Shown piece after piece: positions 37,710 to 43,790 of a stretch of 49,349 nucleotides of DNA. The DNA is from an uncultured Prevotellaceae bacterium (GTDB lineage Bacteria; Bacteroidota; Bacteroidia; Bacteroidales; Muribaculaceae). The position numbers and the translations under genes were made by a program. Every line of letters starts with the position of its first letter. Positions within the stretch are counted from its first letter, which is position 1. The notes under the pieces are model-generated. The model saw only the letters and a program-made list of their open reading frames with translations. It was not told the DNA's origin and made no database searches. The stretch lies in contig ONGE01000023.1 of NCBI GenBank assembly GCA_900317325.1, positions 1 through 49,349 on the forward strand, written 5' to 3'.

Positions 37710-37838
37710 CGGATAAAACGGATGTAACGGACAAAACGGAAATTACGGAAAAAACGGATAAACGGGCAAGACGGAAAACCGTCCTGCCCGTTTTCTTTTC
37801 TTCTTTTGTGAATCCGTTATCTCCGTTATTTCCGTTTC
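37707..37838. repeat. Degenerate ACGGA arrays flanking a terminator hairpin
   Basis: The left arm (37707-37762) contains seven ACGGA words about 8-10 bp apart. The right arm (37812-37838) contains three inverted copies (TCCGTTAT, TCCGTTAT, TCCGTTT). Between them lies the hairpin at 37760-37793. The symmetry is like that of the heptad repeats around the four-helix-bundle gene, but no gene is enclosed here. Confidence 0.6.
37760..37808. terminator. Terminator between convergent DUF3332 and radical SAM genes
   Basis: Stem AAACGGGCAAGACGG / CCGTCCTGCCCGTTT with one A-C mismatch (a G-U pair when read on the minus strand), loop AAAA, followed by a T/C-rich tract on the plus strand. The minus-strand reading is also followed by T-rich sequence, so it can serve both genes. 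Confidence 0.8.
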
Positions 37839-37853: not shown

Positions 37854-39140
37854 TTACAGGAGGTTGCGTGAGTAGATTTTGACAATTCCGTCGAGGAACG
37901 CATTCAGCTCGTAGTCGCAGAAGTCACCCGTGGCGTTGATATCGCCTGTCTCGTAGTAACCGCGGGCACGGCACGCACCGCCGCAGATGTAGCGGATGGC
38001 GCAGTCGCGGCATTTGATCATCGTGTCAACATCCAGTTTGGCACATCGCTGCAAGGCTGGGGAATCCCTGTAGATGTCCTTGATGCTGCGCTCGTGCACG
38101 TTGCCTGCCAAGAACTCGTCAATGTGCAGCAGTTGACACGGATAAACGTCCCCTGTTGGTGAGATGCTGATCTCGTTGTCACCTATAGCACATTTGTGAG
38201 ACTGGATGCACTTGGAAATGTCGAGAGAACTCTCGCAGTAACTCAGGGGATTGACACCGAAGGCGCCAGCCAGGGCATCATAGTATTGCTGGCCTGTAAT
38301 GGACAGTTCATCTTCGGCCAAGTCCGACACTGGAAACAACGGGGCAAAATTCAGCCTGCCGCCAAATCGTTGCGCCATCGCCTCTACCTGGTCGATGTTC
38401 AGTCGGGTGACGGTCATTGACAAGGTGTAGTCAATGCCGTGACGCTCAAAAATGTCCACTGCCCTCAAGACCTGGTCATAGTTGTCGCCGCGTGTCAGGC
38501 GGTGGGTCTCGCGCGTGGGTCCGTCGATGCTCAGGGTGACCAGGTCAAAGGTCTCCTTGATGAACGGTGCGTTGTCCTCGGTGATCAAGGTACCGTTGGT
38601 CAGCAGCATCATGGTGCAGCCTTTTTCCTTGCAGTAGCCCGAGACGGGCTGCCACAACGGGTTAAGTAGCGGTTCGCCACCGGTAATGGTGATGGTGAGT
38701 TCAAGGGAAAGGTCGCACAGGTCGTCAATGACCTGCTTGTAATCATCCAGCGTGAGCTGCGGGTAGCGGCTTTCGACGCGTTCGGCGGCATAGCAGTACT
38801 TGCAACGCAGGTTGCAGGCACTCGATAGCGACAGGTGCACGCAGCGCAGTCGCTTGTCGCGGGGGTGCTGTGGATGGGGTTTTGTTTCAAAGATGGACGA
38901 ATCAACAGCGTGCTGGCAGAAGGCTGCGACTTCATCACGTTTCTCTTCTCCCAGAATCTCGCAGGTTGCATCCACAATGCTGTCGATGGTATTGCTGCCA
39001 TCGAATTGTGACATGAGCAAGGCGCCCAATTGGTTGGTGACAATCCATGCGGGCAGCAGGGGATTGATGTAGATGTATTTGTCCGCCCGTTGGAAAACCT
39101 GTACCTCGTCAGGGAGTCGGTATTTTGTGGTATCGTTCAT
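37854..39140 (-). CDS. Radical SAM/SPASM peptide maturase with N-terminal RRE (PqqD-like) domain
   Basis: This cytoplasmic iron-sulfur enzyme of 428 aa is likely to modify the Cys-repeat protein encoded just upstream. The start at 39140 (MNDTTKYRLP) is chosen because the frame further upstream overlaps the Cys-repeat gene and reads low-complexity sequence. Residues about 4-90 look like a PqqD-type peptide-recognition domain. The radical SAM cluster motif C109-x3-C113-x2-C116 (CNLRCKYC) is intact, with TITGGEPLL after it. The C-terminal SPASM region has many Cys residues (CAIGDNEISISPTGDVYPCQ, IKCRDCAIRYICGGACRARG and a final GDFC), enough for two auxiliary clusters. The gap to the upstream gene is 7 bp. 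The chemistry (thioether or other cross-link) is not predictable from sequence alone. Confidence 0.88.
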   Translation of the reverse strand: MNDTTKYRLPDEVQVFQRADKYIYINPLLPAWIVTNQLGALLMSQFDGSNTIDSIVDATCEILGEEKRDEVAAFCQHAVDSSIFETKPHPQHPRDKRLRCVHLSLSSACNLRCKYCYAAERVESRYPQLTLDDYKQVIDDLCDLSLELTITITGGEPLLNPLWQPVSGYCKEKGCTMMLLTNGTLITEDNAPFIKETFDLVTLSIDGPTRETHRLTRGDNYDQVLRAVDIFERHGIDYTLSMTVTRLNIDQVEAMAQRFGGRLNFAPLFPVSDLAEDELSITGQQYYDALAGAFGVNPLSYCESSLDISKCIQSHKCAIGDNEISISPTGDVYPCQLLHIDEFLAGNVHERSIKDIYRDSPALQRCAKLDVDTMIKCRDCAIRYICGGACRARGYYETGDINATGDFCDYELNAFLDGIVKIYSRNLL

Positions 39141-39147
39141 TGATGGC

Positions 39148-39810
39148 TTATCGGGACTGGCCTCCGCATTGATAGGCTGAGCCACACTTGCCGCCACCGC
39201 CCGCACACTCATAGGAGGAGCCGCACTTGCCCTGGCCGTTGGCCCCTTGCCCGGCGCAACTGTACGAGGAACCGCACTTGCCACCGCCGCCGGCGCACTC
39301 ATAGGAGGAACCGCACTTGCCTTGTCCGTTGGCCCCTTGTCCGGTGCACTCATAGGCTGACCCACATTTGCCACCGCCACCAGCACACTCATAGGAAGAG
39401 CCGCACTTGCCCTGGCCCTCGGCGCCCTGGCCGCTGCAACTGTAGGATGAGCCACACTTGCCGCCACCGCCGGCGCACTCATAGGAGGAACCGCACTTGC
39501 CCTTGCCCTCGGCACCCTGGCCGCTGCAACTGTAGGCTGAGCCACACTTGCCGCCACCGCCGGCGCACTCATAGGAGGAACCGCATTTGCCCTGGCCGTT
39601 GGTTCCCTGACCGCTGCAACTGTAGGACGAGCCGCACTTGCCGTTGCCGCCCGCGCACTCATAGGAAGATGAGCAGTTGCCCGAACCCGACGGGTTGCTG
39701 TTGGGGTTCTCGTTGGCTTTCGCTCCAAAGAACACCGAAGGCGCAACTACACCAGTCGCTACCAGAGCGGCCAGTTTCTTGATGAATTCCCTGCGTGATT
39801 GATTATCCAT
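39148..39810 (-). CDS. Tat-exported Cys-rich tandem-repeat protein, probable radical SAM substrate
   Basis: The 220-aa product starts at 39810 with a twin-arginine signal (S5-R6-R7-E-F-I-K-K then a hydrophobic stretch ending APSVFFGAKA). From C46 to the end it consists of five complete 30-residue repeats and one shorter copy of 25. Each complete unit is C-G-S-S-Y-x-C, six residues (AGGGGK), C-G-S-A/S-Y-x-C, then ten residues (SGQGAEGQGK type). This gives 12 C-x5-C motifs and 24 Cys, with a Tyr in every motif. No enzyme domain is visible. Such Gly/Cys repeats beside an RRE-radical SAM gene are typical of ribosomal peptides modified after translation. The gene lies 11 bp after corA and 7 bp before the radical SAM gene. 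Confidence 0.85.
   Translation of the reverse strand: MDNQSRREFIKKLAALVATGVVAPSVFFGAKANENPNSNPSGSGNCSSSYECAGGNGKCGSSYSCSGQGTNGQGKCGSSYECAGGGGKCGSAYSCSGQGAEGKGKCGSSYECAGGGGKCGSSYSCSGQGAEGQGKCGSSYECAGGGGKCGSAYECTGQGANGQGKCGSSYECAGGGGKCGSSYSCAGQGANGQGKCGSSYECAGGGGKCGSAYQCGGQSR
39151..39675 (-). repeat. 90-bp coding tandem repeats of the Cys-rich protein
   Basis: The DNA encoding residues 46-220 is a tandem array with a 90-bp period: five full copies plus a 75-bp copy. Successive copies are nearly identical, so copy number may vary between strains by slippage or recombination without changing frame. Confidence 0.85.
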
Positions 39811-39821
39811 GGTAGTAATTG

Positions 39822-40751
39822 TTACTTGAAAAATTTGCTGTGACGAATAAAAAAGTAGACCAGTGCCATCAGGACCACCGAGAGGATTATGGCCAACGGG
39901 AAGCCGAGCCAATGGCTTTCCATGCCGTTAGGCACGTTCATGCCGTAGTAACCGGCTATCACGGTGGGAATCATCAGCAGGATGGTCACAACAGTGAGGG
40001 TCTTCATGATGCGGTTCAGGTTATTGCCGATAATCGATGAATAGGTCTCCTGTTGCCGTTCAAGAATGTCGTTGTAGATACTGGCGGTGTCAAGTGCCTG
40101 CTGGGTCTCGATCTCGACATCCTCGAGCAGGTCCTCGTCGTGAGGCAAGTTGCGAAGCCGTTTCTTGAGGCGTGCCAGCACCGTCATGTTGCCCTTGAGC
40201 GATGTGATGAAGTAAATCAGGAATTTGCCGATTCCCATCGTGCGCATCAGCTCATCGTTGTCCATTTTCTGTTCAAGACGCTCCTCGGCAACATTCAGCA
40301 TACTGTTCATCTGCTTGAGGTACTTGAGGTACCACACCGATGTCGAGAGCATCAGCGACAGCAACAGGTCATAACCCTTGCACGAGTAGATGCGGCGTTG
40401 GTTACTCCAGCGGATGAAATCGTCAAGTACCTCGGTGTCGTAGTAGTTGACCGTGATAAACACGTCGTCCCGTATCAGAACGGCCAAAGGTGCTGTCGTG
40501 AACACGGTGTCACCGTCCTCGTCGATGCCCTTGGACGGGATGCGAACGAACACCAGCGTCCAGTTATCTTCATGATCCACACGAGGGCGCTCCTCGATAT
40601 CCTTGGCATCGTGAGTGAAGTCGGGAACAGCAAAGCGCTCCTTGAGCAACGCCAAGTCATCGGCAGTCGGCTTGCTCACCTTAATCCAGCACCCCGACTT
40701 CCACTGATGAATCTCGCTGAATCCATCCTTGCATTTCCAATAACTGATCAT
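39822..40751 (-). CDS. corA: CorA-family divalent cation channel
   Basis: This inner-membrane protein of 309 aa should carry Mg2+ or a related metal. It has the large N-terminal cytoplasmic domain, a long stalk helix and two C-terminal membrane helices. The signature YGMN is present after the first membrane helix (IPTVIAGYYGMNVP). The C-terminus is basic (FFIRHSKFFK). It is the first gene of the minus-strand operon with the Cys-repeat and radical SAM genes, 11 bp upstream of the former. Whether its metal is linked to that system is unknown. A -7 box lies at 40778-40785. Confidence 0.93.
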   Translation of the reverse strand: MISYWKCKDGFSEIHQWKSGCWIKVSKPTADDLALLKERFAVPDFTHDAKDIEERPRVDHEDNWTLVFVRIPSKGIDEDGDTVFTTAPLAVLIRDDVFITVNYYDTEVLDDFIRWSNQRRIYSCKGYDLLLSLMLSTSVWYLKYLKQMNSMLNVAEERLEQKMDNDELMRTMGIGKFLIYFITSLKGNMTVLARLKKRLRNLPHDEDLLEDVEIETQQALDTASIYNDILERQQETYSSIIGNNLNRIMKTLTVVTILLMIPTVIAGYYGMNVPNGMESHWLGFPLAIILSVVLMALVYFFIRHSKFFK

Positions 40752-40777: not shown

Positions 40778-40785
40778 CAAAGTTA
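40778..40785 (-). promoter_or_regulatory. -7 box of the corA/Cys-repeat/radical SAM operon
   Basis: TAACTTTG on the minus strand, 27 nt upstream of the corA ATG. No clear -33 TTTG is found at the right distance. Confidence 0.5.
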
Positions 40786-40829: not shown

Positions 40830-43790
40830 TTAATTGTCATCAGGATAGCATTTGTCTTCTAATTCTTTGATATGTCGTTCAAGATAGAGAATCTCGGGAT
40901 CCGGTGTGATTGCTGTTTCTGAAAGATAATCTATCGGATGACTATAAACGATAGATCCATTCTTATAGACATGATTGATGGAATAGGCCTTAATCCTATA
41001 TACTTCGTCATAGCATGTCAAAGCCTTCTCATACTCGCCGAATTGTTCATATAACTTACCGACACAAAGCCAGCATTCGGCAATTTCAGGGCTTCTTTTG
41101 ACGCTGTAATACTGGCTCCTTGTGTGATAGGCCTCCCTGAAAAGTTCTAATGCTTTTGTTGAATCGTTTTGACAGGCGTAGAGTTTACCCATACAGATGT
41201 CGCTCTGTGTGAGGGCCAGTGTGCGGTCTGTCTCGTCATCAAAATATGCTTTTTTTCGTATCTTTTGTGCCTTTTTTAGCACTTTCTCGGCTTCGGTATA
41301 TTCACCTAATAGGCAATGCATCATACCGATGTTGTCATAACAATCAGCAATCAAGTGGTGTTTATTGCCCAATGAGTCGGTCATCATATCCAATACTTTA
41401 TTGTAACACTCCTGGGAATGGGTTTTATCGCCAGCCATTGCATAGAGATAGCCTGACTTGTTGTAGCTTTCAATTAACTCACGGTATTCTAGGGCTAATA
41501 CCTCTTCATAAACCTCAGCAGGATTGAATAAAAAGAGAGTACTGTTTTTATTACGGTTGGAGTAGTACTCCTTTTCTCTGAGGTCAAGAGCCCGTTTCCA
41601 CCACTCTGCTGCTTGATGATAATCACCGCTGCGCTCACAGATATTCCCCATTCGCTCGTATAGTACATCACGGGGATTATTATTGGATTGATCAGTTTCA
41701 ATCATTTTTTTACAGTACAGCGCAGCCTTTTCTAGTTCGTTTTGGGAGTCGTATAAATTGGAAAGCTCATCGTAAGCTAAGCCAGGGAAGTCGGTTGCTA
41801 ATGCCTTATCGAACCATTCTTGTGCATGAGTCGTATCTCTCATCGCATAATACACTTTGCCGATGTCTAAATAATCAGCAGCCAGTTTATATTGTCCTGG
41901 TTCATAGGGCCATGAGCTTTTGGACTTTAGTGCATCAAGAAGATATGCCAATGAATTCTCGTATTGGCCGCAGTCATATAGTGACCCCGCAAGTACCTTG
42001 TAGCATAAAGTAATGTTTTCCAGTCCATGCTCGTTATCGTTTATCGAAGCCTGATGCATCGATTGGACTTCTTCAAATAATTCCTGAGTGTCGGTACTTT
42101 GCGCTGGCAAAAAGCCATGCTTGCTCTCATAGTTGTTGTAGATATCTAAGGTGGCGTTCAGTTCGTTGATTGCCACTTCAAGGCACCCGTCTGCAAGTGC
42201 CACCGAGCCAGAGTTTTTGTGGTTCTCGGCCAGATGTTTGAATTCTTGTCCAATTAACCTATGTAGCTCAGCGACAGTCAAGTGTTCCTTGCCATATGTT
42301 TTTTCATAAATGCGCAAGGCGTTCGAGAAGTAGGATATGGCGCAAGCACAGTCGACCCACCAATGTGACATGGGGTAGTAAGATTGTCTCTGATAGAGTT
42401 TCCCGATGTTGGTGAAAGCTTCGGCTGTTGAGATGCTTTCGTCTCCATAGGCTTTCTTTTTGATAGCTAAAGCTGGCAAAAGATAGTTTTCCATTGCCTG
42501 TTGCCAATAGCCAGACGGTAAAAGACTCGTTATTGCAAAGTTTTCATAGTATGTGGCGAGGCTGGGGTTATTCTCTTCATCCAGTTCTTTAAGTATATTG
42601 ATAGCCTTTGTGATAAGCGAATGATCGGTAAGAATACCCAGATTATTGTATGCTTCGGCCGTTAGAGCATGCTTTTCTCCCAATAATCGCTCTCGGATCG
42701 ATAATGCTTTTTCGCTCAGTTCTATCGCTTTCTCACTGTCAATGCTTTCATCATAATAACTTCCTATGTAGTAAGTTTGTCCTAGTTCGTCGTAGGTTTC
42801 GGCCAACATGAGTTCGTCGGTTGTTTCCTCTGACAGAAGAGCATCGATGCTACGTTGAAAAAACTTTTCAGCTTCTTGAAATTTCGATAAATAATCTCTA
42901 TAGAATATGCCGGCATCATTCAGCCATTGAGCTTGTGGTGGCTTAAGGTCGGCTCGCAGGGCAATATAGTGTGCGGCGGAGTCAAATTGGAGTTTTAACT
43001 TAAACATGTCAAACTTGCTGTAACAGTCGTTGGCCACGTCTTCACGGTTGTACTGTTCCAATGACTCGCTCTGTTCTAATTGTTCTCTATCTTTGATATT
43101 TGCTTCGTGATGTTGATTCAATTGGGCAATGCGGACGTGTATATCACCCTTGGTCCGTAACAGCGAGTCTGCCTTGGTGAGCTCTCCTTCCAAAATCCAT
43201 TGGCTTATTTTGCGATTGATGCTGTCTAACTGGTCAAAGTCCATTTGTGTGAAACGTATGGCCATGTCGCGGATCAGTTTTTCATTGCTAGCCTCGTAGT
43301 CATATAATTCCAGCATGGCCTTCTGCAGCTGTTCTTGGGTGATTTTGTTTTGCTGGCGGAGCTTTTCCAATTCTTTTTCACGTTCATTGATGGTTCGTTG
43401 TAGGGATTGACGAATGCTTCGCTCTGCTGCGAGCTGATCTGCCAGCAGATGGTCAGCAGTTTCCATCAAGAAAACGATGGGTGTGGAGGAGTAACGGTAA
43501 GTTTTTGGCGCTGCTTCGGAGTCGATTAATTTATAGTTCTTCAGCTCCACCGATTTAACAGCAAACTGCTTACTTGCCAACGGGAATGAGAATGATCCAT
43601 TGGAATTCTCCACAAGAATATCATTACGACCATATACTTTTACCACAGCTCCTTTTAACCCGGTTCCGTGCTTTCCTGGGCGTCCAGGAGTTTTTACCAC
43701 TCCATACTGAACTTGTGCATCAGTAAATGAGACTGAGGAAAGAATGATAATCAACGATATCAATAATCTATTTAAATGAATCATATCCAT
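40830..43790 (-). CDS. Large secreted TPR-repeat protein with coiled coil
   Basis: This 986-aa protein has a signal peptide (about 1-25), a short beta domain (about 26-110, perhaps a carboxypeptidase-regulatory-like fold) and a charged coiled coil (about 115-240, AERSIRQSLQRTINEREKEL). From about 270 to the end it consists of tetratricopeptide repeats (AETYDELGQTYYIGSYYDES, AEAYNNLGILTD, ADCYDNIGMMHCLLGEYTEA, AECWLCVGKLYEQFGEYEKA). TPR arrays bind other proteins; the partner is unknown. There is no histidine kinase or DNA-binding domain at the C-terminus. The DNA is clearly more AT-rich than that of neighbouring genes, so acquisition by transfer is possible. It is probably a periplasmic scaffold. 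Confidence 0.75.
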   Translation of the reverse strand: MDMIHLNRLLISLIIILSSVSFTDAQVQYGVVKTPGRPGKHGTGLKGAVVKVYGRNDILVENSNGSFSFPLASKQFAVKSVELKNYKLIDSEAAPKTYRYSSTPIVFLMETADHLLADQLAAERSIRQSLQRTINEREKELEKLRQQNKITQEQLQKAMLELYDYEASNEKLIRDMAIRFTQMDFDQLDSINRKISQWILEGELTKADSLLRTKGDIHVRIAQLNQHHEANIKDREQLEQSESLEQYNREDVANDCYSKFDMFKLKLQFDSAAHYIALRADLKPPQAQWLNDAGIFYRDYLSKFQEAEKFFQRSIDALLSEETTDELMLAETYDELGQTYYIGSYYDESIDSEKAIELSEKALSIRERLLGEKHALTAEAYNNLGILTDHSLITKAINILKELDEENNPSLATYYENFAITSLLPSGYWQQAMENYLLPALAIKKKAYGDESISTAEAFTNIGKLYQRQSYYPMSHWWVDCACAISYFSNALRIYEKTYGKEHLTVAELHRLIGQEFKHLAENHKNSGSVALADGCLEVAINELNATLDIYNNYESKHGFLPAQSTDTQELFEEVQSMHQASINDNEHGLENITLCYKVLAGSLYDCGQYENSLAYLLDALKSKSSWPYEPGQYKLAADYLDIGKVYYAMRDTTHAQEWFDKALATDFPGLAYDELSNLYDSQNELEKAALYCKKMIETDQSNNNPRDVLYERMGNICERSGDYHQAAEWWKRALDLREKEYYSNRNKNSTLFLFNPAEVYEEVLALEYRELIESYNKSGYLYAMAGDKTHSQECYNKVLDMMTDSLGNKHHLIADCYDNIGMMHCLLGEYTEAEKVLKKAQKIRKKAYFDDETDRTLALTQSDICMGKLYACQNDSTKALELFREAYHTRSQYYSVKRSPEIAECWLCVGKLYEQFGEYEKALTCYDEVYRIKAYSINHVYKNGSIVYSHPIDYLSETAITPDPEILYLERHIKELEDKCYPDDN

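Follow-up and report, generated by a model that had tools for sequence, protein, structure and literature searches.

Among the described relatives of the system reported here, the CteB/SCIFF and PapB ranthipeptide maturases have, to our knowledge, short peptides without export signals as precursors, and the CXXX-repeat peptides of Bacteroidales (Haft and Basu, 2011) reportedly carry their Cys repeats beside a radical S-adenosylmethionine (SAM) enzyme. In bufferins, which are ribosomally synthesised and post-translationally modified peptides (RiPPs) modified by multinuclear non-heme iron-dependent oxidative enzymes (MNIOs), a general export signal of the Sec type replaces the typical leader of a Cys-bearing product, and Sec signals beside RiPP recognition elements (RREs) are also mentioned in PMC12710340. 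Streptosactin, made by GggB, is a 14-mer with Cys25-Ser28 and Cys31-Gly34 rings, and its cluster includes a protease and regulators, according to PMC8172795. Here, we describe a pair of genes, encoding a Cys-repeat protein with a twin-arginine translocation (Tat) signal and a radical SAM/SPASM enzyme, found in contig ONGE01000023.1 of an uncultured Prevotellaceae bacterium placed by GTDB in the Muribaculaceae (assembly GCA_900317325.1). The whole stretch analysed, 49,349 nucleotides (nt), is called the window; loci and genomes of relatives are given L and G numbers, respectively.

A previous sequence-only reading had described three closely spaced genes on the minus strand, and all three were found where it had placed them, separated by 11 and 7 nt. 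The second and third genes make up the system, with the following features:

39148..39810, minus strand: Cys-repeat precursor protein (P0001), 220 residues, with 24 Cys in 12 C-x5-C motifs
39715..39810, minus strand: Tat signal SRREFIKKLAALVATG...AKA, residues 1-32 (TIGR01409), with the AKA site at residue 32
39166..39675, minus strand: array of 12 C-[GS]-S-[SA]-Y-x-C motifs, residues 46-215, at spacings of 13 and 17
37854..39140, minus strand: radical SAM/SPASM maturase, 428 residues (Pfam Radical_SAM and SPASM above cut-off)
38886..39128, minus strand: RRE-like (PqqD-like) N-terminal domain of the maturase, residues 5-85
38370..38831, minus strand: radical SAM core (Pfam), residues 104-257, with CNLRCKYC at 109-116
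37917..38192, minus strand: SPASM region with seven cysteines (317, 335, 377, 380, 386, 390, and 408)

The start of the Cys-repeat gene was taken to be the ATG at 39810, as assumed in the 11-bp gap, rather than that of a longer open reading frame (ORF) beginning with TTG, and the relatives agree with this choice.

We have high confidence that the two genes form a genuine cassette, whose pairing is real, conserved, and specific. Among 297 family genomes, nine gave a match to the enzyme at E ≤ 1e-40, eight of them at full length, and the Cys-repeat protein occurred in the same eight. Within the genus, 12 of the 101 genomes searched carried the enzyme (11 full length). A single-sequence search of a draw from the order matched the own genome only (1/393), and a draw from the phylum gave five matches among 395 genomes, namely the own genome, those of two green sulfur bacteria, and two more. 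The green sulfur carriers, G848 and G892, contain the FMO protein family PF02327, which was present in none of 14 control genomes; their family has the enzyme in 2 of 86 genomes, and their enzymes are 39-40% identical to that of the window. When each genome is counted once (L003 is G222, L006 is G247, L004 is G1077, and L005 is G1081), 17 genomes encode a full-length enzyme of this group: 11 of the genus, G001, G083, G172, and G179 in the family, and the two green sulfur bacteria. In 16 of them, the gene immediately 5' of the enzyme gene encodes the Cys-repeat protein; in the seventeenth, G1110, the enzyme gene starts 62 bp from the contig end. The sequence-only reading had proposed the two proteins as substrate and enzyme, a proposal that enzyme homologues mostly lacking Cys-repeat neighbours would have undermined; the opposite was observed. 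The precursor thus adjoins, and is conserved together with, an RRE-bearing tailoring enzyme, as expected of a RiPP system.

Genome G203 (L014/L119), kept outside the 17 genomes, encodes a 144-residue enzyme fragment (residues 284-427) and no substrate gene, and the fragment stands beside an esterase gene whose product is 70-75% identical to the esterase beside the pair in G247 and G268. Judging from these sequences, this looks like a natural joint loss, in which a deletion apparently removed the substrate gene and most of the enzyme. The more distant enzyme homologues of G940 and G722 have no Cys-repeat protein at their loci. These loci contain a 42-residue ORF (L027:2994-3122, minus strand; L028:3041-3169, minus strand), located between a gene that reads as ABC-exporter-like and the enzyme homologue. 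The two ORFs have the leader MFNPLGFASLSxLEA in common and contain a Cys cluster; on this pattern, they are likely to represent a separate, conventional RiPP precursor family.

The enzyme scored 95.5 bits against Pfam Radical_SAM (cut-off 29.5) and 38.0 against SPASM (cut-off 21.5), in line with its first description as a SPASM enzyme, and the seven SPASM cysteines are invariant in all ten aligned members, including two green sulfur bacteria. The RRE-like nature proposed for the N-terminus was also borne out, with a score against Pfam PqqD itself that stays under the cut-off (14.6 bits versus 23.4; E 0.041); the structure model of the full enzyme was too weak outside this N-terminus. For all eight enzymes ranked, the top NCBIfam match was StsB (NF045574), which we take to be GggB. 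The window enzyme reached 168.8 bits, and those of seven relatives 147.8 to 175.8, against a cut-off of 625, which places them outside that family. The domain content is nevertheless of the StsB type, with an N-terminal RRE, a radical SAM core, and a SPASM region bearing auxiliary-cluster cysteines. The streptosactin pair GggA/GggB thus resembles the pair described here in the domains of its enzyme and also in having Cys with Ser or Gly at +3, and differs from it in that the precursor here is a 220-residue Tat protein with 12 motifs and the cassette encodes no protease. The ranthipeptide maturases share the domain order of the enzyme, but its scores were far under their cut-offs (94.1 versus 425 for TIGR03974, SCIFF; 102.5 versus 340 for NF047865, PapB). 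CteB was the best match among solved structures, both by sequence and by Foldseek.

CXXX-repeat families gave no precursor match at E ≤ 1 and were absent from the best 25 of 94 families matched by the enzyme. The sequence-only reading had set the repeat apart from CXXX-repeat systems, a distinction that we regard as tentative; the repeat of the window has the form C-x5-C, is joined by Gly-rich linkers, and comes with a Tat signal. The cassette differs from bufferins in combining a Tat signal with a radical SAM enzyme, and Pfam gave no MNIO match among six window proteins.

The earlier count of 12 C-x5-C motifs in P0001 was verified from the Cys spacing: successive cysteines follow one another at 6, 7, 6, and 11 residues in strict repetition, no Cys is left over, and the motifs alternate at spacings of 13 and 17. 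We compiled 154 motifs from 14 complete distinct precursors, leaving aside those of G179 (96.6% DNA identity to G172, and containing N) and G1103 (cut by a contig end). The search pattern was C-[GS]-x4-C, so that both cysteines are fixed by definition; the finding that none of the 14 precursors has an unpaired Cys is independent of it. Every one of the 12 complete, distinct precursors from the family contains exactly 24 Cys, arranged as 12 pairs, even where spacings vary (13, 17, and 19, ending in 13, 13, 13, in L158; one spacing of 22 each in L006, L009, and L156), and the green sulfur precursors have four and six motifs. Gly9 is invariant (154/154). Position 4 is small throughout (Ser in 117 motifs, Ala in 32, Gly in 5) and position 5 is Tyr in 137, Phe in 7, Trp in 6, and Ala in 4, the last being all the motifs of L025. 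Cys is the only side chain kept throughout the motifs. In L010 (G001), Trp replaces Tyr in every second motif, and the odd and even motifs of this precursor may differ in role.

The precursors of the window and of L003 differ by 50 synonymous and 12 non-synonymous codons out of 220, and both have 24 Cys at the same spacing. Chance is an unlikely origin of the array, which recurs in other assemblies and is conserved. Synonymous differences exceeded non-synonymous ones in all three comparisons between genomes, and also between the repeats of 9 of 11 arrays, the exceptions being L005 (105 non-synonymous versus 89 synonymous) and L003 (nearly equal, 120 versus 124). A constant motif count maintained by purifying selection would be more in keeping with a folded protein than with a peptide that diversifies. 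These data also bear on the idea of a secreted antimicrobial product akin to sactibiotics, for which one could cite the nearest named family, that of sactipeptide maturases, and the patchy distribution within the genus (12/101). We consider this very improbable, since a constant array of 12 motifs in a 220-residue protein, the excess of synonymous differences, and the absence of any protease, exporter, or immunity gene recurring beside the pair all speak against it. This absence refers to the neighbourhoods that were read, with Pfam scans of part of the flanks that covered six proteins of the window and 18 from relatives; within the same scope, no streptosactin-type protease or regulators recurred, and the original observation that the cassette itself has no protease or exporter gene holds.

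The N-terminus of P0001 matched TIGR01409 with 22.2 bits (cut-off 16.7), and genes for TatC and TatA are present in the own genome, which together support the Tat signal originally read from the sequence: the protein has what a Tat substrate requires, a twin-arginine signal above cut-off and a host with Tat genes. TatC was found in eight of ten relatives tested, including all seven good-quality genomes, and neither Tat gene was found in G001 or G179, both of which are incomplete. Of 11 precursors inspected, 10 have an AxA site ahead of the array; the exception is L012, which has none.

Taken together, these results lead us to favour, with rather more confidence than doubt, a minimal RiPP-like system of two genes, with the Tat signal serving as leader, thioether rings being formed in the cytoplasm, and the folded product being exported by Tat. 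The 220-residue precursor would be bound through its Tat signal by the RRE-like domain of the enzyme, which would then work along the array in the cytoplasm and form thioether rings at the paired cysteines. Since Tat moves folded proteins, as stated in PMC10924467, its use for an array cross-linked in the cytoplasm is coherent. The pre-folded protein would leave by the general Tat translocon of the host, and signal peptidase would cut off the signal in the periplasm, which would amount to leader removal; with these two steps, no dedicated protease or transporter would be needed. The mature product would be a rigid periplasmic protein of a fixed size of 12 motifs and not a diversifying toxin. 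That the enzyme cross-links the exported Cys-pair protein is probable, and we hold it with moderate confidence on the basis of the sequences compared here; our confidence in the exact bond and in the role of the product is low. The likeliest single bond would run from Cys1 of a motif to the alpha carbon at position 4, where the residue is small (C-x2-S/A/G), and it is favoured because the rings of streptosactin have the same C-x2-[small] spacing. A thioether at position 4 gives no account of the second Cys in each pair.

The enzyme could also modify the array in another way, for example by epimerisation, by formylglycine formation, or through a carbon-carbon or aryl cross-link that involves the aromatic residue. 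SPASM enzymes as a class catalyse diverse reactions; anSME, PqqE, and the mycofactocin maturase were also among the matches of the enzyme, WgkB came second for L025, and position 5 is Tyr, Phe, or Trp in 150 of 154 motifs. However, the Ala at this position in all four L025 motifs, with only Cys retained throughout, and the fact that the best-scoring named relatives that modify peptides form thioethers at Cys render such chemistry unlikely, although it is the most serious of the alternatives. The same four Ala residues weaken the sequence-only reading's use of Tyr as an obligatory cross-link partner, and a Tyr cross-link as universal chemistry was rejected.

Regularly spaced Cys pairs would suit disulfides or metal ligands, and P0001 might be an ordinary Cys-rich periplasmic protein, such as a metal buffer or a small solenoid, with the enzyme acting elsewhere or only on its N-terminus. 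A low-confidence structure model (pLDDT 50.8) has a short strand per motif, and the weak top Foldseek rows include left-handed beta-helix enzymes; the best E value was 0.47, with no match at E ≤ 0.001, and these results are no evidence for a fold; the fibre-like product envisaged in the sequence-only reading is conjectural. Likewise, a profile of the substrate had no match to solved structures at E ≤ 0.1. Two lineages that are far apart within the phylum both pair the array strictly with a radical SAM enzyme bearing an RRE, and the substrate is lacking in G203, where only an enzyme fragment remains; these points make this explanation improbable.

The thioether reading can be extended to a stricter one, in which the Tat signal would be both the leader for the RRE and the export ticket, and the demand of Tat for folded cargo would act as a checkpoint, so that only the fully cross-linked 12-motif protein, a solenoid with up to 12-24 thioether rings, would leave the cell. 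We regard this extension as tentative, and rather doubtful in its full form.

The third gene of the window and the putative signals around the three genes are as follows:

39822..40751, minus strand: corA-family transporter (Pfam), a neighbour outside the system whose adjacency varies
40778..40785, minus strand: TAACTTTG, a Bacteroidota-type -7 element 5' of corA
37760..37793, minus strand: terminator-like hairpin with a 15-bp stem, 3' of the enzyme gene

A scan returned seven terminator-like hairpins in the stretch covered, versus 2.9 expected, and the one after the enzyme gene has the longest stem. Promoter-like sites were labelled with TAnnTTTG, which we take to be the Bacteroidota-type -7 consensus.

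The sequence-only reading had counted corA as a member of the operon, and the neighbourhoods do not bear this out. The idea that the three genes form one metal-related system draws on their tight spacing in the window and on corA also directly preceding the pair in L003, L004, and L005. However, other carriers have other upstream genes: a divergent esterase (L006 and L113, the only loci where an esterase flanks the pair), a Mur-ligase-type FolC-like gene (L114), a ROK-family gene (L116), and, in the green sulfur loci L117 and L118, a co-directional Sel1-repeat gene, which the cassette follows; in G001, the contig ends upstream of the pair. A search for DUF3332 gave 41 matches among 61 genus genomes, and of the 30 loci that were read, the enzyme is present in five, another 12 lack it and show corA no more than about 1.5 kb away (whole in eight of them), and the remaining 13 contain neither gene. 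Since corA occurs at this junction with or without the cassette, it is a neighbour only. In addition, TAnnTTTG, found 5' of corA in the window, L004, and L005, lies directly 5' of the substrate gene in L006, L009, L011, and L012; it was not seen before this gene in L025, L026, or L010, the last with only 33 nt of upstream sequence. A joint metal system is thus largely refuted, and corA may simply supply the promoter for the pair in the window.

Further genes were noted around these loci. A 986-residue tetratricopeptide repeat protein is encoded 5' of corA in the window (40830-43790, minus strand) and also in L003, and it is not upstream of corA in L004 or L005. Just upstream of corA in L004 (1239-2252, plus strand), a protein matches an IS200-like transposase below threshold (19.9 bits versus 23), and a similar protein start occurs in L005 and, further upstream, in L003. 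An IclR-type helix-turn-helix protein is encoded 3' of the cassette in L006. In the green sulfur loci, the gap between precursor and enzyme genes is 79 nt (L025:2753-2831; L026:2767-2845) and holds an inverted repeat, recognised by eye, that differs in sequence (CTATTCACGGAG/CTCCGTGAATAG versus TATGGCA/TGCCATA); it is possibly an attenuator keeping the precursor above the enzyme.

Two routes of spread, on plasmids and by viruses, were considered and rejected. No match was found in a plasmid collection at E ≤ 1e-30, and among 80 of the 202 loci confirmed in viral contigs only L029 was near (51%). This IMG/VR contig opens, within its first 596 bases, with the coding sequence for the C-terminal half of the 51% identical enzyme, and the upstream part lies off the contig.

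Among radical SAM RiPP systems, what is new here is best seen as the combination of only two genes, a Tat signal as leader, a protein-sized substrate, and a fixed number of motifs. The export signal seems to double as the tag recognised by the enzyme. How export before modification is avoided is an open question for Sec-type RiPP precursors, as put in PMC12452194, and since Tat carries folded cargo, a precursor with a Tat signal would be a simple, directly testable two-gene answer to it. An engineered Tat route has been used for phage display of nisin, according to a review (PMC11048544), and nature may already use Tat for a modified peptide in the same way as these engineers did. Within the open-access literature covered by our searches, we found no description of a naturally occurring precursor that combines a Tat signal with a radical SAM enzyme.

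Should the rings be formed, the size and the degree of cross-linking of the product would be unusual for a natural protein, and it would be of use as a rigid scaffold. That the cassette occurs in rumen Muribaculaceae and in green sulfur bacteria suggests that its role is tied to anoxic life.

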